A stretch of DNA of 64,000 nucleotides from Paratrimastix pyriformis (lineage: Eukaryota > Preaxostyla > Paratrimastigidae): the NCBI GenBank assembly GCA_027972325.1, contig JAPMOS010000008.1, forward strand, positions 682,001 through 746,000. Reading direction: 5' to 3'. Below the pieces are notes generated by a model. The model did no database searches. It saw nothing but the letters and a program-made list of their open reading frames with translations, and was not told where the DNA came from. A program made the position numbers and the translations under genes. Of the stretch, positions 8,094 to 63,500 are shown piece after piece (within the stretch, counting starts at the first letter, position 1; the number at the start of each line of letters is the position of its first letter).

Positions 8094-9343
8094 TTGACAA
8101 TGGCGACCAACGCAACGATCCTCTTCACCGAGTTCAAAATTCGTAACATGCTCCTCAAAAATCGTTTTGTTCGGTCTGCCCAAACTGACGATAAATTTGT
8201 GTACGACTTGCATCATCTCAGATCAGCCACTCACGAAGCTATGGCCACCCAAGGGACGGGAAGAATGACTCCTGAGTTGGTGAATCTCTACAAAGCATTA
8301 GCTGAAGGAGATGTGGGCTTGATCATTTCTTCTCACGCAGCGGTGACCAGCCAAGGCCAGGTTGGCCCGCGCCAGCTCCTGATCGAATCTGATGAAGCTA
8401 TCTCCGGTTTCAAGGAATTGGTTGATGTGTGCCACCATTTTGGCGCTCGTATCGCCATTCAACTTGCTCACGGTGGTGCCAAAGCCAAGCAGGCCGAGCT
8501 GACTGGCTTAGGTAACCTAGTTGTGGATACCTTGACCAATGAAGATATTGCCCAGGTCACAACCGCCTTTGCCGAAGGGGCCCGTCGGGCCAAAGCGGCT
8601 GGTGCTGATGCAGTGCAGATTCACTGTGCCCACGGGTACTTCCTTTCGCAAACCCTCTCGCCCGCCTTCAACCACCGCACCGACCGATATGGGGGTGACG
8701 CTGCATCTCGGGCCACCATTGCCCTCGAGGTTGTGCGTGCAGTGAGGAACGTTGTTGGCCCCGAGGTCAGTCCGCCGTGTTCGCGATGCTTTCATGGTCT
8801 CTTTCGCTCTTAGATGGCCATCTTAGTCAAGATGAACAGCCAGGATTTCATTGAACCGACCCCGGAGCAGCCATCAGTGGGCCAGACGATCGCTGACACC
8901 TGCGTGGTGGCTCGGCTTCTTCAAGAGGCCGGAGTCGATGCCATCGAGCTCAGGTCTGCCACGCTCACGCTGCACTGTCATCACCTGCCGTTAGTGGAGG
9001 GATTGAGCGGGGCCTTTTGGCTCGGACCGGCCTCACCCTGGCCAAGGAGGCCTACCACAAGGATTACGCACGCGCCGTGAAGCAATCCGGCGTGACGGTG
9101 CCCCTCATCTTGGTGGGCGGGATTCGATCCTTTGGGATGGCTGCCGAGCTGCTGGAAGGTGGTGTGGCCGATCTCGTGAGTCTTTCACGCCCCTTCATCC
9201 GGCAGCCAAGCCTCGTCAAGGATCGGGAAATGCTCCAAATCGAGCGCGTCGCGTGCATTTCATGCAACCGGTGTTTCCCAACCCCTGCTGTTGGGAGCCG
9301 CATGGCATGCCCATTTGCCCAGGTCGCCCCACCTTCGTCTTAA
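8094..9343 (+). CDS. Old Yellow Enzyme family NAD(P)H:flavin oxidoreductase
   Basis: FMN-dependent ene-reductase/NADH:flavin oxidoreductase (PF00724-type TIM barrel). It reduces activated C=C bonds or related electrophiles with NAD(P)H, probably in the cytosol. Visible motifs in order: N-terminal FKIRNMLLKNRFVRSA, barrel strand IAIQLAHGGAKA, active-site segment VQIHCAHGYFLSQ followed by HRTDRYGG, FMN-phosphate-binding LILVGGIRSFGMAAELL and LVSLSRPFIRQPSLV, and the C-terminal cysteine cluster CISCNRCF. Two introns keep the frame and restore conserved motifs: 8766-8813 (GTCAGT...TTAG) and 8954-8994 (GTCTGC...TTAG), the second rebuilding AIELSGG. With both removed the protein is about 386 residues, normal for single-domain members; there is no C-terminal pyridine-nucleotide reductase domain. 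The start at 8094 gives the conserved N-terminus directly. Confidence 0.92.
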
Positions 9344-9883
9344 TCGGAGTGCTCTCGTGTTTTTTGCACGGTACGGAAAAAGAACAGAGAAACCATCCAG
9401 AGCGAAATAAACGACAAAACCCTCCAGACGAGAGAACGCACGCAAGTGTGTTATTTGCGCCCATTGCGTAGAGTAGGTCAGGAAATATAAAAAGGGTGGA
9501 AGGAAGGCGCCATCCGAGGGCGCTCGTTGTGATGAATATAAAACGAAGAGCGAAACCCGGCACTCCAGTTGAGATCTGTCTCTCGAATTGAAATGGTTGG
9601 AACAGGGCTCCATTCAACTGGAACGTCTAACACCCTTCCCTCGCGCAGGCCAGGAACGGGACCTGACGGTACATCATTCGCGCTGCGATTGTCGGCGAAC
9701 ACAGAATTGGGAGGATACGACTCACGTTGTTGTTGCGCTCTGATATCTAAAGGAGAGGATTCGGGTTGTGCTGAGACTGGTGGACAGACAGTCTTTCAAA
9801 GTGAAGCAGAGCGGAAAGTCCTTAGAGGCCGAGGATGATGCAGGCTTGGTCGTCTTGCTCATTGCTAGGGAAACTTGAAATGA
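9344..9883. other. Intergenic, AT-richer, no gene seen
   Basis: 540 bp between the oxidoreductase stop and the DET1 start. A TATAAAAAG string at about 9488-9496 and an AATATAAAAC string near 9535-9544 could be core promoter elements for DET1. I see no RNA gene or coding sequence. Confidence 0.45.
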
Positions 9884-12800
9884 ATGACCTCGGCGACAAG
9901 AGTTCAGACTCCTGATAACAAGAGGCAAAATGGCGAATTCCGGGGGCTGCTACGAGGGCAAGGTCGTCATGTGTCAAGGCTACATAACACTTTCGGGATC
10001 AGTCGACTCGTCTCGACAGCCCTGACAGATATCGTTCCTCCTGGACGCAGGTTTTCGAAATATTCAAACACTCCTTTTACAACGCGAGTGCGGATTGCGT
10101 CAATTTGCCCATGGTGGGGGCGCGGTGGCCCGACAGGAACGCCTCTTTTATCGGGCCGTTGTTCCTTCCACCACCCTGGCGGAAATAGATTTCCCGTCCT
10201 CTCTTTACATTCGAAAATTTAGCCCTGACGGCCAGTTGCTCATTTGCTTTGCCAGGACGCACGATCGTGTTCTGGCATTTCGATACTGCGGCGCTCCCCC
10301 CGTGTCGTCGACGGACGGGGATGACGATTCCCTCCCTGACCAGGCGTTTCGTTTCGAAACTTACTTCAAGAACATGTTCGATCTGCGCGTGACAACGGAT
10401 CCTCGCGAAATGCTCTTCCGCGATTTCTGTCTCTTCACTGAGAATGGCTTCGTCCGTTCATTGATCGGCATCACTCCACGACCACATCCTCGTTAGCTTC
10501 TTGTCGCATCATCCATGAAATCCGCTCCCACCCGAGCGGCTCCTCCGGATCCGCACGCATCGGCCCTGGAGATGCCGACCTATGATGTGACCTTCCACCT
10601 GCTCAGTCTGAGCGAGGGCAAGGTCATTACCAAAACTGGTGCGCCGTGTGGTCATCCTTTGTGCGGGGGCGGTAGGTTGTCGACCAGCTGCGGTTCCCCA
10701 ACGACTTCATCGCCCTCGCCCGGCACAGCGGGGTCTCCCTGCTGGGGCCCCGGCTGGGGATCCTCTCCGTCCGCCACCAGACCATCCACATGTACTGGGT
10801 GGCGGTCCGTCCCCGGCCCCTTGCCATCGGGATGACGGCATCCCCCCCCCCCCCCCCCCCCCCCCCCACCCGCCGCCCAGGACGAGGGCCGGTTCGTGCG
10901 GGTGTCCCGCATTGGGGCGCATTGCCGAGACGATGATGAGCTTGTCCTGGCGACCCAACAGTACGCCGAGCAGCGCACTCTGATCGCAGCCGCCGGCCGG
11001 CCGATGCACAGCGATGATGTCGAGGGCCGGCGGGCCCAAGAGGACGTCCGCAGCCGCCCCATCGCCCGCCCCGATCCGTCCCTCATTACCTCTCTGCATG
11101 CCCCTTCTCACGAGACCATCCGTGTGCTCTGGGCAGCCCGGCCCGGCTCGGGGGCGCCCCCCTCAACTACCGAGGCGAGCCGCGACCGACCCACAGGCCT
11201 TGGCCTCCTCGGCGCCCCTTGCCGCGTCCCTTTTCGCGCGGCCTGGTCATCCTCCCGTTGCTGCTTCCGGATCCCCGCCTTCACCCGCCCTATCAACGGG
11301 GCCACCGCTGAGCCGCAGACCTGCGACAGGAGAGGCCACGCCACCCCGGTCGCTGCCCATCGCGCCCACCCAGACCTCTCCCGAGGGTCGTGAGGCGCCC
11401 CCTGCTGGTGCTCCTCCTCCGACTCACACTCCTCCTCCTGTTGCTGCTGCTCCTCCTCCGGCTGCTGCTCCTGCTGCTGCGGCCGCTGCTGGGAGTGGGT
11501 CTTCCCCGGCCTCCGAACCGAGGCCTTCGTCGGCGCCCCTGGGACGGGCCGTCCCGCTGTCTCGGGGTCTCTCCATGCCCAGCGCCCTCCTCCGGCGGGG
11601 CTCCCTGCAAGACGCCGTCCTGCCGCGCCCGACCCGTCCCCGGGCCCCATCCCCGTCGCACGACCTCTCCCCGCAGGCCTCGTTGCCGCCTCCTCGGCCG
11701 GCCCCCTCGGTCCCCCCGACGGCCAGGCCGCCACCTTCCCCCGGGCTGCCCGGCCCCACCGCCGGGGGCTCGCCATCGGCTGCGCTGCTTCTCGCCCGGC
11801 ACCCGGCCGCCCCGCCAACGGACCCGAACCCCTTGGTGCTCCCACCACGCAGGCACGCCCGCCCCGACCTCTTTCCACTCGCCCAGCTCCCGCCCCCCCA
11901 TCAGGGCCCGGGCCCTGCTGCTATCCCCCTCGTCGGACGGCCTTCGGTCCTTCATGCCCCCCGGATCCCAGGCAGCGGACCCGCGGCCCTTCCAGCCATG
12001 GCCACGGCAGCAGCGACCGGCCCGACCGGATCGGGTACTCCCGCGGAGGCTGGGCCCCCGACTTCCTCCCCGGCCGCTCTGCCCCCGATTCTGATCAGCC
12101 CCCGGGCCGTCCGCCACGTTGGACTTGGCACTGCCCTGCCCGCCCGCCCCGACTCGCCGGGCCTCGTACCCGAGCCGGACGACGAACCGGACTCCCCGCC
12201 CGACCCGCGGCAGCAAGGCGGCGGGCCCCTCTGCGCCATCGGGTCTCGCGAGAGCCGCTGCCTGTGGCGCCGCCAGCCGGCTCCCGCCCCAGCCCCATCA
12301 TCGGCCTCCGGAGGTCCCCCGCACGACGCGCAGCCACCCCCCGCCCTCCCTGGTGCAGCCCCTCTTCCCGCAGGCCCCACCGGACCTGCTCCGATCGCGG
12401 CCCGGGGGCACCTGCCGACCCCACCCCCGCCGCCGGGCACCCCGGAGGGCAGCCTGGAGGAGCTGCTGCGGGGCGGGCTGGACGACGAGGATCTGGTCGA
12501 CGATCCGGACCTCATTCGGACACCCCCGCCCCCGCCCCCAACGCCTCCGGCCCCGCTAGGGCCCACAGCCCGACCCGCGGAGGGTGCCGCTCGGAGGGTT
12601 GCGACCGCGCCCGCCTCGCCGCCGACCACGGAAGGGTCGCCGGGAGGGGCCCCCGCTGCCCCCGCTGCCCCCGCTGAGGCCCGCGCATGTGCCCCTTTCC
12701 CCGCCCTCCTGCCTCCCCTCCGCATGACAGCGCCGCAGACAATCACTGGCACCCTTCCCTCTCGTTGCGTGCTGCGTAGCCGCCCAGCCCAGGGCCCCTC

Positions 12801-13110
12801 GCGGCGCTGCAGCACCGACTGCTGGCCTACTTCGCCCGCCAATCCGCAGCCTCCCCGTCCGCCGGATGCCGCGCCGCCCAAAACCCCCCTTTGCTCATCT
12901 TCAGCTCCCCTTTGCTCAATGGATGTGGGGGCTGGCTGCAGCACGCAGGGAGGCCTCTACGCGTCCATGTACCCCTTCCTGGCCAATATGCTCCTGGTGC
13001 GCTTCCAGTTCTTGGGCCCCGACCGGCTGCTGGTCAAGTTCGCCATGCCCACCGACCACCTTCCCGTCCGCTGCCCCCCGCAATCTTGTCTCGGGAAGCG
13101 ACCGCGGCCT

Positions 13111-13146
<36 letters not shown>

Positions 13147-14385
13147 AGGGTGCCCAGGCACCGCTCTCGGTGTCGATCTTGAGTCGTCTGTTTCTGTCTG
13201 TGTCTCCTTGCGTGTGTGTGTGCGTGTCGATGTCTGTGTGTCTGTGCCTGTGTCTGTGTGTCTGTGTGTCTGTGTGTCTGTGCCTGTGTCTGTGTGTCTG
13301 TGCCTGTGTCTGTGTGTCTGTGTGTCTGTGTGTCTGTGTGTCTGTGTGTCTGTGTGTCTGTGTGTCTGTGTGTCTGTGTGTCTGTGTGTCTGTGTGTCTG
13401 TGTGTCTGTGTGTCTGTGGGGTGCCTGCAGGTGCCGCTGCTGCTGACCCAGACCCTGCCCCAGACGCGCTGCCTGCTTGCAGTTTACGATCTGGCCGAGC
13501 ACATCTTCGTCGCCGTCCACTCGGATCTCTCGCCCGTCTGTCGCAGCGCCCTTTTCCCCCTCGACACACGCGCACACACGGTGCGCCTGTCCTCACCGGC
13601 GGGCCTCCCGCTCGTCTGTGGGCGCAGGAGCTCTTGCGGCTGACCGAGCGCAGCCCGGACGAGCTGTACGGGGTGGACAGCCCGGTGGCCGTGGGGCCGA
13701 GTGCCCTGCCGCGCTGCTGGCGCCCGCTGGCCCTGGCCTCGCCCGCCGACGACTACCAGGCCCGCAGCCACCAGGAGCGCCTCGTCCGCGCCATGGCCGA
13801 CTCGGCCAGGTCCCGGCCGTCCCTTCCGGCCCCGCCCACCCACCCGGCCCTCGCATCTGCCCCCTGGCGGGGCGCCCTCTCTGTGCTCGTTGTTGTGCCC
13901 ATCATTCTCCGGTTTCTCGGGGGCCGGTGGGTGGATGGGTGTGCGTCTTTGGGTGGGATGGATCCGAGTGCCCCCCAGGTGCCGCGAAAACCCGGCTCTG
14001 CTCACCCGCCTGCAGTTGGCCTGGCTGCCCGCCCCAGCGCAACTGGCCATGCACAGCCCCTACCTTGACCGGGCCCTCTTCGGGTACGACCCCCACCTGG
14101 CGGGGCCCCTGGAAGCGCCCAAGCCCTTCGCCACCCGAGTGCGCTTCTCGCATCTGCCCGAGGGGACCCTGGCCTTCGAGCTCTTCATCCAACCTCCGGA
14201 TCGGGGCGAGCCGGACGAGAAAGCCCCCTCACGGTCAGTTGGTTTACCGACTTTCTTTCGGCTGACCTGCCTGTAGTCGCACGGTGGCCTACCACTTCAA
14301 CCCCGTTTTCCCCATCGTGATTTCAGTGGTGCATCTTGGACCTCGGTCGTACGCGACCAACCTGCATCTTTGGGCCCCGGGGTGA
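9884..14385 (+). CDS. DET1: DET1 homologue (CRL4-associated) with long Pro-rich insertion
   Basis: DET1 works with DDB1/COP10-type factors and CUL4 ubiquitin ligases in the nucleus. Family landmarks run in order across the exons: [16 protein letters not shown], then LFTENGF|LLVASS joined over intron 10452-10496 (GTCCGT...GTTAG), [17 protein letters not shown] joined over intron 10805-10880 to [30 protein letters not shown] (about 12792-12836), [49 protein letters not shown] and the C-terminal [18 protein letters not shown]. The first intron, 9963-10050 (GTCGTC...ACGCAG), keeps the ATG at 9884 in frame. Between about 11.0 and 12.78 kb lies a Pro/Ala/Ser-rich insertion of several hundred codons, absent from the DET1 family as I know it, with one acidic patch ([17 protein letters not shown]). 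Remaining exon borders inside 10.6-14.2 kb are approximate. The stop is 26 bp from the stop of the opposing TLC gene. Confidence 0.9.
10842..10867 (+). repeat. Poly-C tract, 26 nt, at a 3' splice site
   Basis: Sense-strand C run in DET1 intron 10805-10880, ending 13 nt before the CAG acceptor. It occupies the position of the polypyrimidine tract. Confidence 0.95.
13112..13145 (+). repeat. Poly-C tract, 34 nt
   Basis: Sense-strand C run near the 5' part of a long DET1 intron, upstream of the TG-rich microsatellite. Confidence 0.95.
13190..13419 (+). repeat. TG/TGTGTCTG microsatellite in DET1 intron
   Basis: About 230 nt built of TGTC, TGTG and GCCTG blocks, settling into a TGTGTCTG octamer. 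It ends just before the acceptor GTGCCTGCAG at 13420-13430, after which the conserved DET1 exon [11 protein letters not shown] begins. Confidence 0.9.
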
Positions 14386-14411
14386 GCACTACCCTGCAGG
14401 GCATGACCCGG

Positions 14412-15428
14412 TTACTCCTCCTTTGTGCGCGTCTGCACCATCCGCTTGGCGACGCGGATGACGCCACGCGTCATGAGAGCGAACCAGTACACGTCCAGAC
14501 CCGCCAGAATCAGTGCCGTCCCGAATGTTGCGGCGATGTACGGTGGCGGCAACGCATGGAAGTAGGCATATCGATGGCGATGGACTTGGACGGCGTACTG
14601 TGAAGCCGAAGTATTTAACGCGGAACACCCAACGATCGGACCTCAAAGATGGATGTGGACCGCACCACACCAAAGACGATCCACATGAGAATCCCGTTGA
14701 TGGCCTCCGTGCGCGGAGAGAAGGAGAGGATGGCAGAGTACGCGGGGGAGGCAGCCCCATCTGCGAAGCTGGCCCTCTGCAATTCAAGAGATTTGTGCGT
14801 CTCCCGCATGACCTGTAACCACAACAACACAGGGAATCGGAGGAGTTGGGGTCGTGCGATCGGACTTTGAAGAACCACCGCTGGTTGACGAAGGGTGTCG
14901 AGAGGTCTTGAACCAAGAGCAGGAGTGCGTAGCCACTGAGGACGCGGCCCCAGAGGCAACAGCAAAGTCCGTATATGGCCGCAATGTGGTGGATCAAAGC
15001 ACCATGCGAGCAAAGTGGGGTGCCGCGATGGGCAAGCATGACAATCAAATCGCTAAAATGGAAGTTGAATCAAATCGAGATTGCACAGAGATGCCGACTT
15101 GACGTAATACGCCAATAGGATAACAAAAAAGCGATCCACCCAGGGATGAGTATAATGGACCGGATCATTGAGAGCCCGAGTTTGGAGGAGAACAATTGCG
15201 GAGATCATGGCCGTTACAAAGGCCACACACGTTGAGATGATACGGGTGCACCATTCCGCACGAATCGTCTCCGACGTAAATCGAAACTGTGGGAAAAATC
15301 TGGGCGGATCACCTGCTGATTTCAATTACAAAGGACACGGCAGACTTTTCCGAAAAACGAAACGAAACAAAGTAGAAAAAAGCGAAAAAACTTAGAGAGA
15401 GGATAAATATAACCGCATTCACTAACAT
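14412..15428 (-). CDS. TLC-domain membrane protein (TLCD4/TMEM56-like)
   Basis: Multi-pass membrane protein of the TRAM-LAG1-CLN8 family; TLCD4-type members have a poorly known role in membrane lipid homeostasis. Exons joined in frame give an N-terminal hydrophobic segment (MLVNAVIFILSLSFFAFFYF), EWCTRIISTCVAFVTAMISA, LIVMLAHRGTPLCSHGALIHHIAAIYG with the HH pair, the hallmark LSTPFVNQRWFFK, INGILMWIVFGVVRSTSIF and a final helix TFGTALILAGLDVYWFALM before a KEE tail. Introns: 15287-15329 (GTAATT, phase 0), one with donor GTGCAA rebuilding ASLDLIV, and two with donor GTCCGA. The Met at 15428 is preferred over 15515, which would run into the opposing F-box gene. The two start codons are 63 bp apart, implying a shared promoter. 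Confidence 0.88.
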
Positions 15429-15491
15429 TGCTCCCGACGCCTGAGCCGGCGGATTTGCTTCAAGGCGCTGGGGAGAGGAGGCTATCCTTTT

Positions 15492-17246
15492 ATGTTGGGC
15501 ACACACCGAAAACACACTCTCCCACCCGACGTTGTGGGTATAATTTTCGGTTCACTCAACGCTCGTGACCTGGCAAACGTCGCTTGCGTTTGTCGGTCTT
15601 GGCACGAGCTTGCCAAAAGCGACTACTTTTGGGAGCGTTTGTATCACCTGAAACCTCAGTGGGACGAGCCAACGTATGTAAATACTTGGCGCGATGCTTA
15701 TAAAAACAAATTTTTGAACGAGAAGCAGGTCCGACCGTTTGTGCACGCCCTTCGTCATTCCTCGCCTAGCGAAGGAAAGAAGCTGGTTTGGCAGCTCTCA
15801 GAAGTCTGAATGCGCAAAAGCGAGAACGCGTATATCAAGATGTTGGTAACGCCTCCTACCCGCATGGACTTTTCTTTATGCCCTTGATGTCATCCCTCAT
15901 CATCACGTTCTTCGTCCTCGCCCCAATGAAGTCTGCGCGGTCTCACTCCACAAATGGCAAAACGCTTTTCCCTGATTTCCCCGCACCCTCAGGGCGGATG
16001 GCTGGCTGGACGGGCTCTCGTGGGGGTGGGTGATCTCCTTCCTGGTGTTTGGCCTGGGGTGCCTGTCGATCATCTGCACCTACCTGACGGTCGACCTGGC
16101 CCGGGGCTCCGACCACGACAGGCTGCTCATCATCGGGGGCATCTTTCTACCCATCCCGGGGACGCTTTCCTTCCTGTTGGTGGCCCTCCGGGCCCAGGTC
16201 CGCCCCATGCCGGCCGGGGTCGCCTCCGCACGGTGGCTGCCGCCCCTTTTGCCTGACGCCTTCACTCGATACCCGCCCACCCGCCGCGCCCCCGTAGTTC
16301 CCCGAGTGGGTTGGGCTGCCTGTGACGGTGTGCTTCGTGCCCGTCTACCTGCACGCCCTGTACGCCCTGGGGGTGCTGCTGTGGTTCCTGCTCAAGGAGG
16401 GCGAGCTGAGGAAGGTCCGTGCTCGTGCACCCGCCCCGCCACATGCACCCGCCACATGCACCCGCCACATGCACCGCTTCATGCACCGCTTCATGCACCC
16501 GCCCTCGCTCTGATGTGACGTGGGATGGTCGGGGGAGGATGCTTGGCACAACGTCCCCTGGGACCCACTGCCCCGCCGCTCACCGGGCGCACCCCATTCC
16601 TCTCCGGCTGGTCGGGCGGGCGGGCGGGCGGGCGGGCGGGCGGGCGGGCGGGCGGGCGGGCGGGCGGGCGGGCGGGCGGGCGGGCGGGTGCAGTGGGTCA
16701 TTGTGGGCATCCCCTACGGGACGGTGGCCCTGGAGTTCCTGGTGCAGCCGCTGCTGGTGGGGCTGCGCTGCGACGGCTTGCTGGGGGCGGCCAGCTGGTT
16801 CGTGCTGCTGGTGCCCACCTGGGTGACCATCTTCGGGCTGGTGGTGCTGACCCTGTACGTGATGACCGAGTTCCGCCGGTGCCGGCTGGTGGTCTTCGTG
16901 CTGTGGTCGTTCGTCTTCTGGATCCCGCTCACCGTCACGGCCGTGCTGCTCTGCCTGCGCCTCGACGGGCTCTGGGGGATCCGCTTCGTCTTCATCCTCA
17001 TCCCGCCCTACATCTACCTCGTCGGTCCGCACCCCCGCACCCGCACCCGCCGCCGTCAGGCCTTCCGCGCCCTTGCCCCCTGCAGCGCTCATTATTCCCC
17101 CTTCCCGGGCTGGGGCAGTGCTCTTCATCACGACCCTGGTGCTGTTCGGGGTGGCCATCTACGAGACCAACCGCCACTCGACCTGCCCGCGGGTGTGCTG
17201 CTTCTGGTGCTACTGCTCGTACGCCCTCTGCTGCCACGCCGTCTGA
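15492..17246 (+). CDS. F-box protein fused to TMEM185-like membrane domain
   Basis: Residues 1-70 form a clear F-box (LPPDVVGIIFGSLNARDLAN, CVCRSWHELAKSDYFWERLY), the SKP1-binding module of SCF ubiquitin ligases. Later exons encode a polytopic membrane region: GWVISFLVFGLGCLSIICTY, RLLIIGGIFLPIPGTLSFLL, VTVCFVPVYLHALYALGVLL, and two repeats with the TMEM185 signature LR-x-DGL followed by aromatic residues and a Pro in a helix (LRCDGLLGAASWFVLLVPTW; LRLDGLWGIRFVFILIPPYI), ending LFITTLVLFGVAIYE and a Cys-rich tail. I infer an SCF receptor anchored in an internal membrane. One donor is AAG|GTCCGT at about 16416. Intron borders between 15.78 and 16.0 kb are uncertain. An intron at about 16.5-16.69 kb carries a GGGC repeat. 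Confidence 0.8.
16612..16689 (+). repeat. (GGGC)n tetranucleotide repeat in intron
   Basis: Nearly perfect GGGC array that runs directly into the acceptor GTGCAG at about 16688-16693, before the TMEM185-like exon beginning WVIVGIPYG. Confidence 0.9.
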
Positions 17247-17610
17247 CGGGCCGCCCGCGGCGACACCCCGTCCCGCCCCCAACCCCAACCCCAACCCCTT
17301 CCCATCCTCCCCCGTCCGAATGTACAGCGGCACAGAGACCGATTGTCCCAGAGGATGCTGTTCGGGTTGTCGAGCAGGAGGGGCGGCACGGAAAGGCTCC
17401 ACGGGGTTCGTGGGGCTCCAGAGGGAGCAGGAGCAGGGCGCCGGACAGGAAGCCAAACGAGGACGAGGGATACACCAAAATTAATATGGGGGGGGGAGGG
17501 GATGGAGGGAGGGGATGGAGGGATGGGGGAGGGGGCGCGCCGTATTCACAGAGCCCGAGGGGGCCGCCTGGCGCCTGGCGGGGTTTATGCCCTGCGGCAG
17601 CCAGGCCGGG
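17247..17610. other. Convergent intergenic region, no gene
   Basis: 364 bp between two stop codons facing each other. It contains an AATTAATATG string and a GGGA-rich tract, presumably overlapping 3' UTRs. GC stays high, unlike the gene-start regions. Confidence 0.5.
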
Positions 17611-18608: not shown

Positions 18609-18643
<35 letters not shown>

Positions 18644-22129: not shown

Positions 22130-22168
<39 letters not shown>

Positions 22169-22189
22169 GTGGGGGAGTCCAGATCAACC
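20666..22189. other. Intergenic or unannotated, about 1.5 kb
   Basis: No recognisable protein or RNA. Composition is low-GC from about 20.67 to 21.2 kb (the presumed promoter of the minus-strand gene), GC-rich from 21.25 to 21.88 kb, and low again at 21.9-22.1 kb. The GC-rich block is open in two plus-strand frames (for example 21285-21779) and one minus-strand frame, none with a familiar motif. A small minus-strand frame beginning MGFIFRKAAPSFRCLNRVER near 22.1 kb lies in the second valley. A short unannotated gene is possible. Confidence 0.4.
22132..22167 (-). repeat. Poly-G tract (poly-C on the minus strand), 36 nt
   Basis: Uninterrupted G run on the plus strand, 23 bp beyond the proposed stop of the minus-strand macro-domain gene. 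It is therefore C-rich in the transcript sense. Confidence 0.95.
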
Positions 22190-24187: not shown

Positions 24188-24382
24188 TGCGTTGTATCGG
24201 TAGTACACTGAGGTTTTTCTCACAAATCCGCTGGTTTTCCGATTTGAATTTTGTTACGATCGGTAGGCGGACTGGACTCACAGAAGGACCTTGTGAGCTT
24301 TCTCTTACTAAACTTATTTTCAACGAAATGCATTGTCAGTGCGGAGAAGCTTGGCTGATTGATTGTTCACCAACCCATTTAG

Positions 24383-40102: not shown

Positions 40103-40133
<31 letters not shown>

Positions 40134-43764: not shown

Positions 43765-44802
43765 TCAGCGGTAGAGGAGCACGAGGCCGTTGAGGGGCCC
43801 ATTGGCGGCAGCGGCCACGGGGGGGCACTTGAGTTTGAGGCAGTAGTAGATGCCCGTGTACTCGCTGAGGCCCTCGAAGTTAGCCTGCCCCTTGGAGACC
43901 ACCACCTGGTCGGGCCGGCCCACCCATTGGGCCACCTCGTCCGAGTCTCGGTCGGGGCCAGTCCCGGGGGTCCCGTTGCCGATGGTCACCAGCCGAGCCT
44001 GAGCGCCGCCAGACACCGCCGGACGTGAGCAGTGAGCCCTCCCGTCTGGGTGATGCGCGGCTGCAGACCCGTGGGACCCGATCGAGACCGCAGGCCTCGG
44101 CATCGGCCAGCTGGGCATCGTTGATGATGGGCCCGCCTTTGAGGCAGATTTCGATGGTCTCCAGACCCGGATAGAGCTCCCCGATCAGCTCCAGGGCAAC
44201 TCGGTCAAATACGATCTCGCCCGCATTATCACAGAACCACAGCAGCCTTCGAGCCTGGGGGATGCGAGGAGGCACGCGTGTGGGGCAATCGGAACAAGGG
44301 TGGAGGCGACCTTGGTGAGATCCTTCTTAAATTGGTCGATATGATTAATGCTAATTTCATTCGTGAGCCCTTCACGGATGATGGTATTCGGATCCGGCAA
44401 GTGCTCGACTAGCCCAAAGTCGATCGCATTCGCGGCGGCAGCGAGCCGCATGGCGCTTTCCAAGGGGTCAGTCTGGCTCCGGACCAACTTTTGAAGTTGT
44501 ACGAGGTGCGACATCATGACTTGGTTGCTTTGTTCCTTGGCAGCGAGATACGGGTCATAACCGAGGTGATCCCGGAGGATCCGATGCATATGATGTGCTA
44601 AGGCGATGGGGCTCCTGTCCCAAGATGCAGTTGAAATAAATTGCATAACATCGCGCATAATTTGCTCTGTGGTGGCACGGGGCACCTAACGAGCGATGAT
44701 ATCAAACGGCGTATCGGAAAACGCAGGACAGACCTTCAATCTCGCACAAATTACTTGGAGGGCCCGAAAAAAGCAGGGGACACATTCTGTGTGGAGTTTC
44801 AT
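43765..44802 (-). CDS. DUF89/ARMT1-like metal-dependent phosphatase, prokaryotic-type subfamily
   Basis: DUF89 proteins are metal-dependent damage-control phosphatases acting on small phosphorylated metabolites. The start at 44802 gives the diagnostic N-terminus MKLHTECVPCFFRAL. Intron 44686-44733 (GTCTGT...CGTTAG) leads to the helical domain (ALAHHMHRILRDHLGYDPYL, KEQSN, AAANAIDFG). Then, over a GTCGCC intron, comes the metal site LLWFCDNAGEIVFDRVALEL, followed by IEICLKGGPIINDAQLADAE, and over a GTCCCA intron VTIGNGTPGTGPD and DQVVVSKGQANFEGLSE, then CLKLKCPPVAA. The Asp-Asn of DNAGE, the KGGPIIND and the SKGQxNFE motifs are intact. Length is about 285-290 residues. This arrangement matches the stand-alone archaeal/bacterial branch better than PANK4 or ARMT1, suggesting old lateral acquisition followed by intron gain (inference). 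Confidence 0.88.
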
Positions 44803-47854: not shown

Positions 47855-47893
<39 letters not shown>

Positions 47894-52800: not shown

Positions 52801-55800
52801 TATCCCCCCCCCCCCCCCCCCCCCACACACAGACAGCAGCAGCGGCCGCAGCAGCAGAGGGTGGGTGAGTGGCGTGGACGGGCGATCCACGGCACGGCGG
52901 CGGGGCCCGAGGGACGAGGGGGGCAGGGGTCGGGGGTCCGAGGGACGGGGGGGCGGGGGTCGGGGGGTTGGGGGGCGGACCAGGGCAGCAGGGCCTGGAT
53001 GTGGGCCGGGGCCGAGAGGGCCGCCAGGACGGCCCCCGCCAGGGAGCGCCGCAGGAGCATCTCGCCGGCCCCGAGGGCCCCCCGGGCCCGCAGGTGGGGC
53101 TCCAGCAGGCCCCGCATGGCCCCCAGGGCGCAGCCCACCAGCCGCGGGCTGCACTGGCACATGTCCTCGCACCAGGCCGCCACGGGGGGCAGCAGGCCGC
53201 ACGCGCAGCAGCCGCTCGTCCCGCATGGGGCGCCCCCTGCACCGTGAGGATCCGCTGGCGTGAGCCCGCCGGCCAGCCGGTGGGAGGGCAGGGGGAGGCA
53301 GGCGGAGGGGGCGATGGATGTGTGTGGGGGGGCGGACCGGGGGCTGCGCAGTAGCAGGGGCAGGCGGCGGCGCATGGGGACGGGGCGATCGACTCGCGGC
53401 TGCCGGGCGGGGCCGTCAGCAGGGTGACCAGCCCCTGCCACAGGCCGTGCCGCAGGGCGCACTCGCTCAGCTCGGCCGAGGGCTGCAGGGGCGCGGGGAT
53501 GGGTGGGGAAGGGGTCAGGACAAAGCAGGGGCCGCGGGGGCCGGGGCGGGGGGCCGCGGGGGCCGGGCGGGGCGGCGGACCATCCGGCGGGCGATGAGGC
53601 CCAGGAAGGCGGCCATGCCCTCGAGGGGCCCCCAGGTGGACCCCTGGGCGTACGAGGTCCCCGACAGGAAGACCGCCTTGGGCTGTCGCCCCCACCCCCA
53701 CCCCCGCCCACCCACCACCGCCACCGCCCACCCATCACCACCACCGCCGTCGTCAGACGGGACATCGAAGGGTGTTAACAGAGTGCGCAGGGCAGGGGGG
53801 CGGCCGACTATGGCTTGGGTGAGGGACGGAGGGGGCGGGTGCGGATGCGGATGCGGGACGATGCTGACACTGCTGATGCTGATGCTGATGCTGATGCTGA
53901 TGCTGATGCTGACACTGCTGATGCTGATGCTGATGCTGATGCTGATGCTGAGGCTGATGATGCTGATGCTGACACTGCTGATGATGGGGCGTGTGCCGAC
54001 CATGGCGTGGCACGAGCGGAGCAGGACGGCCATGTCCCGGACGAGGCCGCTGATGCCCCCCTCGGAGGCGGCCCCCGCCCCGACGGCCCCCTGGGGCAGC
54101 CCGGCCAGGATCTCCTCCGCCCGCCAGACGGCCGTCCCCGGGGCGGTAGCGGCAGGGGCGGCTGCGGCAGAGGCGGCGGGTGGGGCTGGTCCCCCGGGGG
54201 CGGGCGGCGGCGGGTCCCACCAGGCGCACATGGCGGCCGCGAAGGACCACAGGGCCGCCACCTCGGCCGCGTAGAGGTCGCCCTCGTGGCTGCAGTGGCG
54301 CGGCGAGCCAGCCCCCGGGCGGCCCGCGGGGTGCCTGCTGGCGCTGGGCGAGGAGGGGCTGCTGGCCAGGGCCGGGCAGGTGGGCGCGGGCAGCCCGTGC
54401 AGGCCGGCGGCCACCCCGCAGGGGCAGCTGGCCACGGGAGGCGGGCCCGAGGGGTCGGGGGGCGCCGGGCCCCCGGGGGGCAGGGCCGCCAGGGCCCGGA
54501 AGCAGGCCCGGTGTCCCTCGTAGTGGGCCGCGAAGCGCAGGTGGGGCGGGGGCGCGGGCGTCACGCCCGGCCGGCCGGGGTGGCCCGGGGCGGGGGCCGG
54601 GCTGCGGCATTGGGCCCGGTGGCGGAGCAGCGAGTGCAGCTGCAGGTGGGCCGTGGGCGAGGGCGTCGTGGGGGCCGCGGCCCGGGGGGTGGTGGGCTGG
54701 CCCAGGTCGGGGGCCCCGGGGCCGCCGGTCACGATGCCGGCTGCCTGGAGGGGCGTGGGCCCGGGGGCCACCGGGGCCGGGCAGGGCGTCAGCAGGGCGG
54801 CCATGAGCATGTACAGGGCCGTCACCAGGCGGGTGTGCATGGCGGCCGCGTGGAGGCCCGTGTGGCAGAGGGCCCCAGGCCCGGGCGGCGGGGGCGGGCA
54901 CAGGTGGGGCAGCAGCTGGGTGGCCACCAGCAGGACGGCCTCGCCCAGGGAGAAGTGGCACCGGCTCCCCGCCCCCGCCCCACCGCCCGCCCCGGGCTGC
55001 TGCTCCTCCGCCGGGCCACCGGGGATGGCCGGGGCCGCCAAGCCCCCGACCCCGGCCGTCCCGCCGCACGAGCCCACGGTGGCGGGGGGCAGGGCCCCAA
55101 GGAGGGTCCCCTTGCCCTCGGGGGCCGGCCCCCCGGGGGCGGCCAGCGGGTCGCGATTGAGGGGCGCCAGGGCGAGGGGCGCCTCCGGGCAGCCGGGGGC
55201 GGGGGCCGCGGGGCCCCCGCCAGCCAATAGGTGGAGCGGGAAGGGGCCCGAGAAGGCTGCCGCCAGCTGGGCGTGGAAGGGCCCGCTGGCCAGGGCGCAC
55301 TGGCGGAAGAGCTGGGCCAGGGCCAGCAGCGCGTGGGTCGTGGGCCCGAACCCGTGGGCGGCCGGGCTGTGGGGGGCCAGCTGGGCCGCCGCCCCGCCGG
55401 CCGGACCGGGGCTGGGCAGCACCAGGTTGGCCGTCCCGGGGCGGGCCGGGGCCGGGGGACCGGGGCGGGGGCTGGGCGGGGTGGCCAGGGCCAGGCAGCC
55501 CGCCATCAGGGCCACCAGGCCGGCCAGCAGGGGCGGGGCGCCCAGGATGGCCTCGGCCACCAGCGCCCGGATCTGGTCCACCACCGGGCAGGGGGGCGCC
55601 GTGCCCGGCAGCGAGGAGGGCGTCGCCGGGACGGCGCCCCGCCGGGGCGGCCATGTGGTAGAAGGGGAACATGGCGATGGGCCGCAGGGTCGAGGGCAGC
55701 GGGGCCAGGGTCGGGTGCACCAGGGCCGCCAGGAAGTGGGCCGTGGCCATCAGCGCGCCCGCGTGGCCTGCCCAGGGCACGCACCCGGTCCCCCCCCAAA

Positions 55801-58800
55801 GTCCAAAGTCCAGACACCCGCCCAGGCCGGCCAACAGTGAGGCCGCGAAGGCGCCCGTGGGGCGGGTGGGGCGGGTCGGCGAGCAGGTCGCGGAGGGGAC
55901 GGATGGGCAGTGGGGGCAGGGGGGTGGCGATGGGGGCCACGGACTGCGCTGGGTGGCGAGGGCGCCGGCCCTGGCGAGGAGGCACAGCAGGCCGGGCTGG
56001 CTGCTGTCGGGCTGGTGGCCGGCCAGGAGGGCGCCCACCAAGTGCAGGGCCGTGGGCGGGTGCAGCTGCAGGCACTCGTGGACCACGCTCAGCGTCTGCA
56101 CGCCCCCCCACACCCCCGAGCAGCCCCACCCCGTGCCGGCCCCGGCGGTCAGCGGGAGGCGGCGGGGGCAGCGGCGGCGGGGGCAGCGGCGGCGGGGGCA
56201 GCGGCGGCGGGGCGCGAGCGGCGGCGGGGGGATGGAGACGGACCGTGGCGGCGGTGGCGATGAAGGCGAGGAGGGCGTGGGGCCCCTCGCCCGTGGCGGC
56301 GGCCATGACGCCCAGCGGGCAGGCGGGGAGCGGGTCGCCCTGCAGGGCGGCGCAGAGGTGGCCGGCCAGCTCGACGGCCATCCGGCCCACGGCCCCGACC
56401 ACCATCTCCCCCTCGGGCTCCGCCTCGGCCTTCTCGCCGTGGCCCTTGGCGGGGGCCGGGCCCGGGTTGCCCTCCCAGAGGGCCCCCAGCACGCAGCCGG
56501 CCACGGCCCGGGTGCTCTCGGCCAGGGCCACCAGGACCCCCTCCAGGGCCCGCTGCCAGCAGGCCGCCTCGCGGGGCCCGCTGCCGCCCCCGGCGAAGCT
56601 GCCCCAGGGGATGGTCGTCGCCGCCCCTGCACAGCCACAGCCACAGCCATAGTCACGGCCACAGCCACAGACGGCCGAGTGGGGGACGGGGGGGGGGGGG
56701 GGGGGGAGGGGAGGGGGAGGGGAGGGAGACACAGCAATGAACCTCGGGCGGGGCGGCCGGTGTGCGGCTGTGCGCTGGTGGCCCAGCAGAGAGCTCGGCG
56801 AATGCGTGCGGGTGTGAGGGCAAAGCGGCGTGGCGGGCGGGGCGGCGGACCCCGAGCGGCCGGGTGGGGGCGGCCACCATCATGTGGCGCAGCAGGGCCG
56901 ACTGGATGGGCAGCAGGAAGCTCGCGGCCATCCGGAGCGCACCACCGGCGCAGGTGCGGGTGCCGCAGTGGGGCCGGCTGCCCGGGGCCGCCGCCGAGCT
57001 GCGGGGGGCCGAGAGAAGCGATGGAAGGAACGGGCGAGGGTGAGGGCGGGACGACGGCACAGAGGGCCGTGGGCGGTGGGGGGGGGGGGGTGGGGGGTGG
57101 GGGGGCGAATGGGAGGGAGCGGAGGGATGGACGGCGCGCACAGACACGGGCCGAGCCGAACCGCCCTGGGCGGGGCCGCCGGTCGGGGGGCGGACGACCT
57201 TCAGGGCCCCGCCCAGGAGGGGCACGGGGGGCATCAGGAAGGGGTGCGTCAGCAGGGCCGGCGAGGGGCTCTGGCCCTGGACCAGCACCCCCAGCTGGCC
57301 CTCGGGGGGCGCCCCCTGGCCTGCATGGGCGCCGCCGGGGGGGGCGTCGGGGGCGGGGGCCAGGAAGCACGGGAAGGGGGTGAGGCCGGTCTCGGAGAGC
57401 AGGTACACCAGCAGCCGGCAGCCCACGAGCAGCCCCGCCGCGCCCAGCTGGGGGGCCTGCAGGGCCTCGAGCAGAGCCCGCAGGGCCACGCCGAGCTCCC
57501 CGTGGGCCGTCTCGCTGTGCACCCCGTAGGCCACCCCCGCCCCGCCCGGCAGGTTGCTGGCCGAGGCGCCCCCTGCCCCCGGGCCCAGCGACACCCCCGG
57601 CCGGACGCCCCACCGCTGGATGACCCGTGCCAGGCAGGCACGCAGCTCACGGGCTGCACAGGGGCAAGCGGGAGGGGAAGGGGAGGGGAGGGGAGGGAAG
57701 GTGAGAAGGGAGGGGGGGTGCAACCCGTCAGCCCCCGTGCGATTGGGAGGCAATGGGAGGGCCAGATGATGACGGTGTGGATGGGGTGGGATGGGATGGG
57801 ATGGGATGGGATGGGATGGGATGGGATGGGATGGGCGGGTGGCTGCGTGGCGGGCCGTTGGGGAGGGAGGCCAGGGCCGCCGCGGCCTCGCGTGGGGTGA
57901 GGATGGCCGGGCAGAGGCCCAGCCCCATGGCCCCCCACCAGGCGGCGTCCCCCCAGCCGGGCGCGTCGTCGAAGGGTGGCGAGGGGGCCTGCCGGGCCCC
58001 CGAGGGGGATGGCGGCGGGGCGTAGGGACGGGCCGAGGCGACCGCCGGGGCGGCCGCAACCTCCGTGGCCTGGCGGAAGGTCGACCAGAGGGGCGAGGGG
58101 CATGGGGCATGAGGCATGGGGCATGGGGCATGGGGGCGGGGCATGGGGCATGAGGGCGGGGACAGAGAGCTGAGCATGGGGAGCCAAGGCCAAGGGCGAA
58201 GGGTGGCGAAGGGGGGCATGGCGAAGGGGCGCTGGGGCATGCATACGGGCGGGGCGCTGGGGCATGCATACGGGCGGGGCGCTGGGGCATGCATACGGGC
58301 GGGGCATGCATACGGGCGGGGCATGCATACGGGCGGGGCATGCATACGGGCGGGCGGCCGACCTGGGCGGCCGCGATGGCAGTGCATGGGGCGGGGCCGC
58401 TGCCCGTGGTGGCGGTGGCCGTGGCGGTGGCCGTGGGGGCGGCCGCGAGGAGGGGCGCCTGGCCGAAGGGGGCCCGCGGGTTGCGCTGGAGGGCCCCGTA
58501 GTACTCGCGCTGGGCGGCCACCCGCTGCTGGAGGAGCGCCGCCCGGGCCTGCAGTTCGGGCCGCTGCTGCTCCGCCTCGCGCGGCAAACGCAGCTCGTGC
58601 TGCCGGCCCACCCCCAGGGACCGCCACGGGCAGTGGGCAGGGGGCGGAGGAACGGTCAGACCCCACGGACAGTGGGCGGCGGTGGCGGTGGAGGCTGTAG
58701 GTGGAGTGGCGGGGTGGTGGTGGTGGTGGTGGTGGTGGTGGAGGGCGGGGGCGGACCAGCCGGTGAGCGACGGGGATGACCTCGTCGGGCCGCTCGTACC

Positions 58801-60445
58801 GCTGCCGGAGCAGCTCGGGCGGGCAGCGCAGCCGGCGGGCCTCCCTGCACAGCGAGCGCCGACCAGGGAGGCGGGACGGTGAGCCGAGTGCCGACGACCG
58901 CCCTCGGGGCCGGCACAGGGCACAGGGCACAGGGCCCGGCGGATGGCGGATGGCGGATGGCGGATGGAGGGGGCGGAGGGAGGGAGGGAGGGTGGGGGCG
59001 GATGCGTGCCAGGGGCGGGGCGGACTTCTCGATGGGGGTCTCCTTGACGAAGGGGTGCTCGGCCAGCTGGGGCCAGTTGAGCCGCTTGTTGGGCTTCTTC
59101 CGCAGCAGCCCCTCCAGGAAGCTCTTGAACGTTTGGCTGCCCGCGCCGCCCGTCCCGACAGGTCCCACAGGTCCCACAGGTCCCACAGGTCCCACAGGTC
59201 CCACAGGTCCCACAGGTCCCAGCACCACCCCGGCCGCCCCGTGATGCCACGTGCGAGTGAGTCGGTGTGGCGGCCTGGGGGGGGGGGGGGGGGGGGATGG
59301 CGACCGGGGCTGGGCCGACCTCATCTTGGGCGGGTACTTGACGGGGTCCTGGACGATCAGCTTGACCAGCGAGACGATGTTGTTCGTGTAGAAGGGCGGC
59401 TCGCCCACGAACAGCTCGTACAGGACCACCCCCAGCGACCACAGGTCGGCCGTCTGGTCGTAGGGCTGCTCCAGCACAAGCTCGGGCGGCATGTACAGCG
59501 GCGTCCCTGCGCCCCGCAAAGCCATCCCCGCCACCGCCAGCCCCAGCCCCAGCCCAGCCCAGCCCAGCCAAGCATCGGCCCCCCCCGGGATACGGATGTG
59601 CCGATGCCGAGGCGGGAAGGGCCCGAAGGGGCGCCCGAGGGGGCGAGGGGGGCGGGGCGGACCCTTGACCGAGGTCAGCACGACCGTGCTCACCGAGAGG
59701 GTCCGCGCAAACCCGAAGTCCGCAAGCTGTGATGAGGGTGACAGACGGGCGGGGGTGTGGGCGAGGGGGTGAGGGTGTGAGGGTGTGTGGGGGGTGCATC
59801 AGCGTGGAAGGAAGGGCCGTCGAACGAAGCTCATGGCAGTCTCATCACCCCGCCCACTCACTACCCCCGCCCACCGAGGGACCCAGGAGCCCGGGAGCCG
59901 AGAGCCCGGGAGCCTGGGGGCGGACCGACCTTGACCACCCCGTCGGCCCCAATGAGAATATTCTGCGGCTTCAGATCGCGGTGGATGATCCGGTTGTTGT
60001 GTAGATATTGCTACAAGACCCAAAAAAGACGCGATGCGGCCACGACGAAGGCCGGGGGGGCAGACCAGGGCTCGAATGAGCTGTTTAGCAATCTTTTGGA
60101 CCTCAACCTCAGGGAGCGTTTTGTCATCTTCGATAATTTCATACAGATCGCCCTCCGCGAATTCGGTGACCAGAACGAAATCGGTGGGCGTTTCAAAGTA
60201 GTCCACCATCAGGATGATGTTTTCATGGGTGAGAGAACGGAGAATCTCGACTTCAGTGCGCAGGTTCTTCAGCTCCTTCGGAGTTTTGTTGGCTTTGGGG
60301 ATGTATTTCATTGCCACAATCTGCCCCGAGCCTTTTCTTCGACCCTGCGGACGAAGGTCGGATAAAGTTGTCGGGGAAACCGGACCTTGTAAACTTTCCC
60401 AAAAGAACCTTCACCAATCAGTGATATAACGTGATAGTTCTCCGT
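49825..60445 (-). CDS. STK36: STK36/Fused serine-threonine kinase
   Basis: Fused-family kinase; STK36 is needed for the central apparatus of motile cilia and, in animals, Hedgehog signalling. Exon 1 (from about 60445) gives [19 protein letters not shown]. Intron 60345-60385 (GTCCGG...CCGCAG) is followed by [17 protein letters not shown] with the ATP-binding Lys, [29 protein letters not shown], then [16 protein letters not shown] (HRD), [20 protein letters not shown] (DFG), [20 protein letters not shown] and [20 protein letters not shown]. The order and many residues match human STK36. The long C-terminal half is Ala/Leu-rich with HEAT/ARM-like helices; [27 protein letters not shown] and [20 protein letters not shown] match the STK36 C-terminus. 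A Pro/Gly-rich tail ends at 49825. The initiator Met is not in exon 1 as read (acceptor-like TTACAG precedes it), so a tiny upstream exon is likely. Exon borders in 50-58 kb are only partly resolved. Confidence 0.88.
52804..52824 (+). repeat. Poly-C tract, 21 nt (sense poly-G)
   Basis: The only long homopolymer inside a gene of this window whose C run lies on the antisense strand, here of STK36. Confidence 0.9.
53866..53985 (-). repeat. (GATGCT)n hexanucleotide array in STK36
   Basis: About 18 units of GATGCT, interrupted by GACACTGCT blocks, inside a presumed STK36 intron. Confidence 0.9.
56688..56706 (-). repeat. Poly-G (sense poly-C), 19 nt
   Basis: G run on the plus strand inside STK36, therefore C-rich in the transcript, followed by GGGA-rich sequence. 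Confidence 0.9.
57783..57836 (-). repeat. (GGGAT)n pentanucleotide array
   Basis: About ten ATGGG units in an STK36 intron. Confidence 0.9.
58085..58355 (-). repeat. Complex GCATGSGG and GCATGCATACGGGCGGG repeats
   Basis: A CATGGGG-type array (about 58100-58160) is followed by several copies of a GCATGCATACGGGCGGGG unit, the first ones joined by GCTGGG. All lie within one STK36 intron region. GCATGC units are self-complementary. Confidence 0.85.
59157..59222 (-). repeat. 9-bp minisatellite ACAGGTCCC (7 copies)
   Basis: Tandem ACAGGTCCC nonamers just upstream (transcript sense) of the STK36 exon [11 protein letters not shown]. The coding-strand unit GGGACCTGT contains no AG and so adds no decoy acceptor. 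Confidence 0.9.
59277..59296 (-). repeat. Poly-G (sense poly-C), 20 nt
   Basis: Sense-strand C run in the same STK36 intron as the ACAGGTCCC array. Confidence 0.92.
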
Positions 60446-60561
60446 CTGTAACTCGCCGATTGTTCTCCCTCACGGGAGATCAAAAAAATTCAAACTGCTT
60501 GGCTTTGCAATATTCTCCCGAGGGTATTTCCTCTAGACCTCTCTCCGTGCAGGCGCACGGC
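60446..60561. promoter_or_regulatory. Bidirectional promoter region between STK36 and CMTR1
   Basis: About 115 bp of AT-richer sequence between the two divergent genes, including an A6 run at 60482-60487. It may also hold the missing first STK36 exon. Confidence 0.5.
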
Positions 60562-63500
60562 ATGGCTGAAGACATCGAGGATCCCGATGTACTTTACAAT
60601 GACGAAAACCAGTTTTACAAACGAGGGCGCCCACATTTCGGGAGGATTCCACTCAACTTTACAGAATACCTGACAGCTCGCCCCTCGCGTGAAAAGACTT
60701 CTTCCTTCGCGATGGACCCCAAAGCAAAACGCATGATGGTTTGTACGAACTCGCATCTGCGGGCACACTCTTGACCACCACCACTTTTCAGGAAAAATCA
60801 GGTTGGGTTCGCGGCGAGACCCTCGGCCGAGGGGATCGCCCCTCGGAGTACGACGATCCCATCGAAGCCGCCGAGCAGGCAGCGCAGTTTATCGGGTCGA
60901 AGCATGGGCTCGGGTTCAAGGGGGCAGCCCCAACGAAAGGCATCCGGATTGACGTCTGGGCGGCGGGCGGCCGGGGGGTGTCGTCACGCGGATTTTGTAG
61001 GTGGCTCTCTCGCAAGACGAGGTCGATTTGAACCGGGAGATCCGCATGCAAGACGAGTACGAGATGATCAGCCTCTCGGATCCGGCCTGCCTGAGCCCCG
61101 ACTACGACTGGCACCGGGGCCTGGTCCTGGAGAATGTCCGCCCGCCCCCCACACCCGCCACCCAGCAGACACGCCCAGCCGCCTCCCGCGGCCACCACTC
61201 GAGCCGCTCACTGACCACCCCTCTCCGGCTGCCCCTCTGTTCTGCTGCCGGGGCGCAGGAGGAGCCCATGCCCGACGGGCGCTTCTGCGAGGAGGAGCTC
61301 GTCAACCAGCTCTTCCAGTTCAAGGTCCCCGCCCACCCGGCCGCCGCCAACGCCGCCCCCACTCGCCCCCCCCGCTCCCACCCGCCCTCCCGCTCCACCT
61401 CCCTCACCGCTGGGGGTCGGTCGGCGGGGGCGTTTGACGCGGGGCTTCTTCCCCCCCGTTGCAGAGCGCGTTCGATGACGTGCCCCCGGAGAAGTTCAAG
61501 GAGGCCCGCATGAAGGCGTCCGCCAGCCTCGGCCTCCTGCCCCGCCCCCCCCCCCCCCCCCCCCCCCCCGTACCTGCCCCTGCCCTGCCTGCCCCTGCCC
61601 TGCCCCTGCCCCTGCCCCTGCCCTGCCCTGCCTGCCCTGCCCCTGCCCCTGCCCCTGCCCTGCCTGCCCCTGCCCTGCCTGCCCTGCCCCTGCCCCTGCC
61701 CTGCCCCTGCCCCTGCCCCTGCCCTGCCCCTGCCCCTGCCCCTGCCCCTGCCCCTGCCTGCCCTGCCCCTGCCCTGCCCCTGCCCCTGCCCCTGCCCCTG
61801 CCCCTGCCCCTGCCCCTTCCCGGTGGCTCTAACGGCCGTTGGGGCGGGGCTGCTGCAGGAACCCCTACGAGCGGGTGGGCAAGCACATCTTCCAGAACCG
61901 GGCTGCCCTGAAGATGGCCAACCTGGACTCCATCTTCAAGTTCACCCAGACCCTCCCATGCCCGGGCGAGGTCCGCGCTCACGCCTCACCCCCGCCTGCC
62001 CAGTCTTCTCACACCCACGGCCCATCCTCACCTCACCCGTCCCTTTTCCCCGCCGCTGCCCGGCAGCCGCTGTATTTTGCGGATGTCTGCGCAGGTCCTG
62101 GTGGGTTCACGGAGTACCTGTGCTGGCGGACCAAGGGGTCGGCCGTCGGGTGGGGCTTCACCCTCCGAGGCCCCAACGACTTCAAGTTCGCGTGCCCTCC
62201 CCCCCTCACCCCCTCACCCAAAATGGTGCCCATCGCGCGGGTGGGCTGTGGGGTGGTGGGAGCTGGGTCGAGAGGACGGGCGTGACGGTGCCATCGGGCT
62301 GGAGGGCGGAGCTGCCGTGGCCGTGGCCGTGGCTGTGGTGGGCGTGCTGACGTCTGTGCGGGGGGCCTTGCGGGGCTGCAGGCTGGAGAAGTTCAACAAG
62401 CAGTCGCCCCACCACAACTTCCACCCCTACTACGGCCCTCACGACGATGGTCAGCCCTCCGGCCCCTCCCCCCCATCCTCGCCCCTTCTCGCCCTCCAGG
62501 CGGCTCTGCTTGCTCACAGGTTTCGGGGTGGCGCGTCTGTTGGCATGCGGGCGGGCGGGCGGGCGGGCGGGCGGGCGGGCGGGCGGGCGGGGGCAGGCGA
62601 CGTGACCAACCCCGACAACGTGAGCGGCTTCCTGGGGCTGATCGAGCAGCACCGGCCGCAGGGGCTGGACCTCTTCGTGGCCGACGGGGGCTTCAGCACG
62701 GAGGGCCAGGAGAACCGCCAGGAGCTGGTCATGCGCCAGCTCATCCTCTGCCAGTTCCTCATCGGCCTGGGCGTCCTCAGGCAGGGTCCGCCGCCACTGC
62801 CCAGCCCGTCCCCACTGGGCTGACCTCGGCGGGTCGGATGATGGACAGGGGGCAGCTTCGTGTGCAAGATCTTCGACAACTACCTGCCCTACACGGTGGA
62901 GCTGCTCTTCATGATGGGGCTCCACTTCGCCTCGGTCACCGTCATGAAGCCCCTCACCAGTCGCCCCGCCAACTCCGAGCGGTCCGCCAGGCCCCTCCCC
63001 CTCTCTCCACCCCACCCACGCGCTTTGTGGGAGCCTCTCCCCGTTCGTCCACCACCTGATGTCCCCTGGGTGGCGCGGGGCGCGATGCTGGCCACCTTTT
63101 AGGTACCTGGTGGGGCAAGGCCTGCTGCGGCGGAGCCCGCCCGTGGTGGGTTACATGCGCCACGTCAATGGCATCTTCAACGACCTCCAGGCGGCCATCA
63201 GGGCAAACGTCGACACGGCCCGCCTCACCCCACGGTCTGGCGCACATGTCCCGCCACGCCCCGCCGCCACCCCTCTGCCATCGGCCGGGATCGCTCACTG
63301 GGATCCGGGGGCCATCGCTGCCGTGGCGGGGTCTGATGGCGCGGGGCAGGGAGCCCGTGCACCTGTTCCCCCCGGAGGCCATCGGGGGCGGCTTCCTCGA
63401 GTACATCCGGCGGACCAACATCCGCATCGCCCAGCAGCAGCGGGCCGCCCTGGAGGAGCTCATCAAGTACATCCGCGACCCGTCCGTCCCGCCCGCCCGC

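Follow-up and report, generated by a model that had tools for sequence, protein, structure and literature searches.

A compensatory change at the 5′ end of U1 small nuclear RNA probably accompanies GTYYG donor sites in Paratrimastix pyriformis

How does a spliceosome recognize introns that lack the usual 5′ splice-site sequence? The question is raised by a 64,000-nucleotide (nt) stretch of DNA (positions 682,001 to 746,000 of contig JAPMOS010000008.1; hereafter the window) from Paratrimastix pyriformis, a metamonad of the Preaxostyla. The initial annotation of the window had proposed that its 5′ splice sites (donors) depart from GTRAGT and follow GTCYG (where R is a purine and Y a pyrimidine). 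An independent set of introns bears this out, and the U1 small nuclear RNA (snRNA) genes of the same genome are changed at the two nucleotides that face the altered donor positions. We consider it very probable that P. pyriformis has an ordinary U2-type spliceosome in which the code linking U1 to the 5′ splice site has been rewritten by a compensatory switch.

The genome analysed comprises 495 contigs with a total of 56,060,509 bases. For comparison, the assembly as published consists of 633 scaffolds totalling 56,627,582 bases; it is 94% complete by Merqury and was annotated with the aid of RNA-seq hints (PMC10703272). Donors were sampled outside the window in eight CCT chaperonin genes, whose exons were located with Pfam PF00118; this gave 50 introns chosen independently of the junctions of the initial annotation. 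The references were mammalian sequences taken from PDB alignments, with five short stretches filled in from outside these alignments. In the spliced alignment every GT had equal cost with GC slightly dearer, AG acceptors were imposed, and the letters from +3 onward were ignored.

The CCT donors are GTCTG (24), GTCCG (15) and GTTTG (5), together with single examples of GTCAG, GTTGC, GTCCC, GTCTA, GTTGG and GTCGT. The GTTGC intron is only 30 nt long and is doubtful. GTYYG is present at 44 of 50 donors compared with 56 of 727 other GT sites in the same loci (Fisher p = 3e-37), and at 40 of 44 after removal of six doubtful introns. GTRAG was found at none of the 50 donors and at 18 of the 727 other GT sites, numbers too small to be significant alone (p = 0.62). 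When any donor dinucleotide was allowed at equal cost 45 of the 50 junctions were unchanged, retaining the GT end of U2-type introns, while five shifted to CT, TC or CG.

In principle, hand-picked junctions or faulty gene models could produce such a pattern as an artefact. The junctions of the initial annotation were indeed chosen by hand, and some residues of the CCT references did not come from the PDB alignments. Moreover, a crude gene finder, also blind to +3 onward and applied to the window plus a 200-kb piece of contig C441 (of which ~7.5 kb was masked), placed GTYYG at only 59 of 179 introns, compared with 1997 of 23440 GT sites overall (8.5%); the lower share indicates that many of these introns are false and the set is noisy. 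GTRAG was absent from the same 179 introns, and present at 730 of the 23440 GT sites (3.1%; p = 0.007). Yet in the CCT alignment the letters that follow GT carry no weight, and the resulting junctions agree with a transcript-derived protein. For CCT4 the best match, a protein in EukProt derived from GAFH01001239.1, shows identity at 459 of 459 residues, which span all seven junctions. We take GAFH to be a P. pyriformis transcriptome, consistent with this identity and with the next match, P. eleionoma, at 74%. The CCT7 model (contig C28, eight junctions) matches an annotated P. pyriformis protein along its entire length at 100% identity, and the public annotation also supports junctions in an OYE-like gene of the window (see below). 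Together the CCT4 and CCT7 donors are GTCTG (5), GTCCG (5), GTTTG (4) and GTTGG (1). The U1 genes, in addition, were located without reference to the donors. An artefact of this kind is barely credible.

Combining the CCT donors with 13 from the window gave 63, a small sample of the introns of the genome. Position +3 is a pyrimidine in every one (C 55, T 8, A 0, G 0), and this is the sharpest statement of the pattern. At +4 there is T in 35, C in 20, G in 5 and A in 3; +5 is G in 57; and +6 is T in 33, C in 21, G in 6 and A in 3. The sequence is GTYYG in 53 donors and GTCYG in 47. The statements of the initial annotation that G is retained at +5, and that A at +3 and +4 is mostly replaced by pyrimidines, hold for this larger set. 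The lack of a purine at +3 departs from the GTRAGT consensus of U2-type introns. Nor do these donors resemble the U12 type, RTATCCTT, which has A at +3. Genome-wide there are 1777 sites matching CAAGGTNNGT, compared with 981 for the reversed control. Among 100 such sites listed (contigs C1-C10), +3 is C in 48 and G in 18, and T in 28 and A in 6; GTAAG occurs once and GTGAG three times.

A search with the Rfam U1 covariance model (RF00003), in which 41 of 992 candidates were scored and parts of the genome were masked, found eight loci aligned over the full length of the model (1-166), with scores of 50.8-60.2 bits and E values of 2e-10 to 4e-13. BLAST using one of these recovered the same eight, each aligned from U1 nt 1. 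All eight begin ATACAGACCTTG, so that the 5′ end is AUACAGACCUUG in place of the usual AUACUUACCUG; the canonical 5′ end AUACUUACC is replaced by ATACAGACC in every copy. The difference is that nt 5-6, which face donor positions +4 and +3 respectively, are AG instead of UU. A further difference from the Rfam consensus is U in place of G at nt 11; U is also found at this position in yeast U1. The putative U1 of Aureococcus anophagefferens is described as canonical, starting AUACUUACCUG like the Rfam consensus (PMC3033335).

An element close to CCCATAA lies upstream of all eight U1 genes, all four U6 genes, the two U5 genes read and the one U2 gene read. It is probably a common snRNA promoter element, and its sharing suggests that these are real snRNA promoters. 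At the snRNA loci (L001-L012 and L046-L048) elements of this type stand ~50-65 nt before the start of the RNA.

Might there be two kinds of U1, the AG form and a canonical one lying in missing or masked sequence, each with its own introns? The genome analysed (56.06 Mb) is smaller than the published assembly (56.63 Mb), which is itself incomplete, stretches of it are masked, and a diplonemid is reported to have two kinds of U1 (PMC12621601). Against this, AG is present in all eight U1 genes found, and a genome pattern search found the TT form ATACTTACCTTG at none of 68 ATACNNACCTTG sites (a form ending CTG falls outside this pattern). AG is present at 12 of the 68, i.e. the eight U1 genes and four other places. 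Furthermore, none of the 63 donors has a purine at +3, so the sample contains no class of intron that a canonical U1 would serve. We regard two kinds of U1 as highly unlikely. The search for U1 5′ ends also picked out a region at C465:94496-94938 comprising tandem ATACATACCTTG units that include one ATACAGACCTTG; this looks like a simple repeat and not a U1 gene.

The altered nucleotides fit the donors closely. AG is the best of the 16 possible dinucleotides at nt 5-6, making 73 of 100 possible Watson-Crick pairs with the 50 CCT donors, where UU makes one. None of the 27 single changes in U1 nt 3-11 increases the number of pairs. The organism's own U1 forms more pairs than a version with UU at 47 of the 50 donors, and ties at the other three. 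The mean is 6.5 Watson-Crick pairs of a possible nine, compared with 5.06 for the UU version, and the mean duplex energy is -9.95 compared with -4.52 kcal/mol. In discriminating donors from other GT sites the area under the curve is 0.93 for the U1 of P. pyriformis and 0.72 for the UU version. The initial annotation had offered altered pairing with U1 and U6, or a relaxed early recognition, as explanations. On these numbers of base pairs relaxed recognition is not needed. Of the compensatory bases that it suggested might be sought in the two snRNAs, those in U1 are present as AG for UU. None is seen in U6, where ACAGAGA is unchanged in all four copies (ATACAGAGA).

The other snRNAs also have their usual motifs, as expected of a U2-type spliceosome. 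U2 has GTAGTA (GTGTAGTATC, in the one of ten matches that was read) and U5 has the usual loop 1 (CGCCTTTTACTAG, in the two of seven matches that were read). For the proteins, the zf-U1 domain of U1-C gave one match, although the control also matched in E. coli, and SNRNP27 gave one partial match. The U1 genes combine the U1 fold with a 5′ end complementary to the organism's own donors. Taken with GT-AG ends, the presence of U1, U2, U5 and U6 genes, U6 ACAGAGA, and G at +5 and -1, the system is like that of canonical U2-type introns. It differs in having AG in place of UU at U1 nt 5-6 and GTYYG in place of GTRAG donors.

On this compensatory reading, the change of U1 nt 5-6 from UU to AG would give a 5′ end AUACAGACCUUG complementary to CAAG/GUCUGU (with the exon-intron boundary at the slash), and the mature RNA is predicted to start AUACAGACC. 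C at +3 would pair with G6 of U1, and U at +3 would form a wobble pair with it. At +4 U would be favoured, pairing with A5, with C tolerated, followed by G at +5. The ACA of U6 would pair with UGU starting at +4, so that GTCTGT would be an optimum serving both U1 and the hand-over to U6. We infer that U1 pairs with donors in this way in the cell, and that the pattern extends to nearly all introns. A genome-wide recoding of 5′ splice-site recognition in this free-living eukaryote, in which every copy of U1 changed from UU to AG and the introns followed to GTYYG while U6 remained fixed, is likely. As to the order of events, U at +4 perhaps came first, as in the AUG at +3 to +5 of Streblomastix, and C at +3 may then have arisen with G6 of U1.

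An alternative would be that the donors have been shaped by G+C-rich mutation pressure or by pairing with U6, with little dependence on U1, whose own change would be drift. Positions +4 to +6 of GTCTGT do pair with U6 ACA, a C at +4 suits neither U1 nor U6, and U1 need not be indispensable, as Cyanidioschyzon has none (PMC11732430). However, pressure towards G+C gives no preference for C over G at +3, whereas C was found in 55 donors and G in none, and drift of U1 would not be expected to land on the best of 16 dinucleotides. G+C pressure was also considered as the cause of C at +4 and rejected, because G+C content does not differ significantly between introns with C and introns with T at +4 (0.578 compared with 0.544, p = 0.41). 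We regard this alternative, too, as highly unlikely. We note that introns with +4 C are longer (median 107.5 compared with 63, p = 0.039). One speculation for the frequency of +4 C is that A5 of U1 could be modified, for example to inosine, pairing with both C and U.

Several observations weigh against a compensatory switch. The U1 scores of 50.8-60.2 bits are below the Rfam gathering score of 69.5; the label U1 was nevertheless adopted because of the full-length fold, the E values and the fit to the donors. GG at nt 5-6 would be stronger than AG by duplex energy (-11.48 compared with -9.95 kcal/mol). The C at +4 of 20 among the 63 donors pairs with neither A5 of U1 nor ACA of U6, and donors other than GTYYG make up 6 of the 50 in CCT genes and 4 of the 13 in the window. 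Unscored candidates, masked stretches and the 94% completeness mean that a further U1 could be missed. Lastly, we infer from genomic sequence that the U1 genes are expressed with the AG 5′ end, and the junctions come from alignment of DNA and protein or from reading frames.

Unusual donors, or an unusual U1, are found in other lineages. In Streblomastix strix, an oxymonad of the same phylum, introns have conserved A, U and G at +3 to +5 and are termed yeast-like (PMC1501061); U at +4 and G at +5 are shared with P. pyriformis, while A at +3 (GUAUG) differs. Giardia donors likewise depart from GTAAGT with U at +4, and its U1 is reported to keep ACUUAC (PMC3510501). The same is true of Saccharomycotina donors. 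There compensatory changes in U1 were sought in 240 fungal genomes and, by that account, ACUUACC was unchanged wherever U1 was identified (227 of 230 species and 9 of 10 outgroups), with +4 U being tied to METTL16 and not to U1 (PMC10581693). Fritillaria has non-canonical introns and a conserved spliceosome, and its U1 5′ end is described as kept (PMC13326754). The diplonemid S. specki has an unusual U1 with a conserved spliceosome, but there a C-rich U1 stands beside a canonical one and the donor logo is canonical (PMC12621601). In laboratory suppressors (PMC11732430) a compensatory U1 restores pairing to a changed donor, but these are engineered for single introns, whereas the change in P. 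pyriformis arose in nature and is carried by all the U1 genes found. All five snRNAs are said to have candidates in Monocercomonoides, with the data not shown (PMC6679479).

The 5′ end of U1 is generally regarded as nearly invariant across eukaryotes. A literature search, mostly outside subscription papers, found no earlier report of this switch of U1 and donors. If correct, it would be nature's equivalent, on the scale of a whole genome, of the laboratory U1 suppressors, and evidence that even a near-invariant 5′ end is replaceable. It would make testable the co-evolution of a trans-acting RNA with a genome's worth of cis sites. The division of donor choice between U1 and U6/U5 would also become testable, because donors and U1 have changed at the +3 and +4 pairs while U6 ACAGAGA has not. 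Gene finders with a built-in GTRAGT donor model may fail in such lineages.

The 13 window donors are GTCTG (4) and GTCCG (4), with GTCAG, GTCAT, GTCGC, GTCGG and GTTTG once each, i.e. GTYYG in nine and a pyrimidine at +3 in all. The letters that the initial annotation gave at seven coordinates are present in the sequence, and its junctions at 8954, 10452, 10805, 44733, 60385 and 60739 were re-derived. The OYE-like gene (+ strand), whose top protein match is from P. pyriformis, has introns at 8766-8813 (GTCAGT) and 8954-8994 (GTCTGC), both with junctions matching the annotated P. pyriformis protein P0121. A further intron of 48 nt at 8174-8221 (GTCTGC), absent from the initial annotation, is excised in P0121. 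Its length is a multiple of three and it is free of stops in the exon frame, so the unspliced message would still be translatable.

DET1 (+ strand) was aligned to the human protein (PDB). The alignment is free of gaps over the junctions of the introns at 10452-10496 (GTCCGT) and 10623-10675 (GTCATT, an exception to GTYYG). That at 10805-10880 (GTCCGT) has one unmatched human residue at the junction, corresponding to a GCG codon omitted from the query. The DET1 query begins with two reading frames joined directly, no intron having been shown between them, and no junction is based on that part. For the genes that the initial annotation named DUF89, STK36 (a kinase) and CMTR1 the junctions were derived from reading frames. 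DUF89 (- strand) has introns at 44255-44310 (GTCGCC, an exception, with the acceptor read by eye) and 44686-44733 (GTCTGT). The kinase gene (- strand) has a donor GTCCGC at 59662, and introns at 59727-59929 (GTCGGT, an exception, between frames VVK and LADFGFAR), 60011-60065 (GTCTGC, upstream exon RAL) and 60345-60385 (GTCCGG, upstream exon GKVYK). The CMTR1 intron lies at 60739-60791 (+ strand; GTTTGT). The seventh coordinate, 15329 (- strand) in the TLC gene, is the only GTAA donor of the initial annotation; with no homology to back the first exon of that gene, this donor may be spurious.

A trade-off between exon and intron pairing with U1 was not significant in the CCT donors (rho -0.23, p = 0.11) and weak when the window was added (rho -0.27, p = 0.03). 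A METTL16-like gene with the NPPF motif is present at C332:38824-39153; the family includes bacterial enzymes and was matched in five control genomes. The gene is retained despite the rarity of A at +4 (3 of 63 donors), unlike the link between METTL16 and +4 A in yeasts. At the other end of the introns, the branch-point sequence CTRAY was found within the last 60 nt in only 8 of the 50 CCT introns, and words of the TCAC type are enriched.

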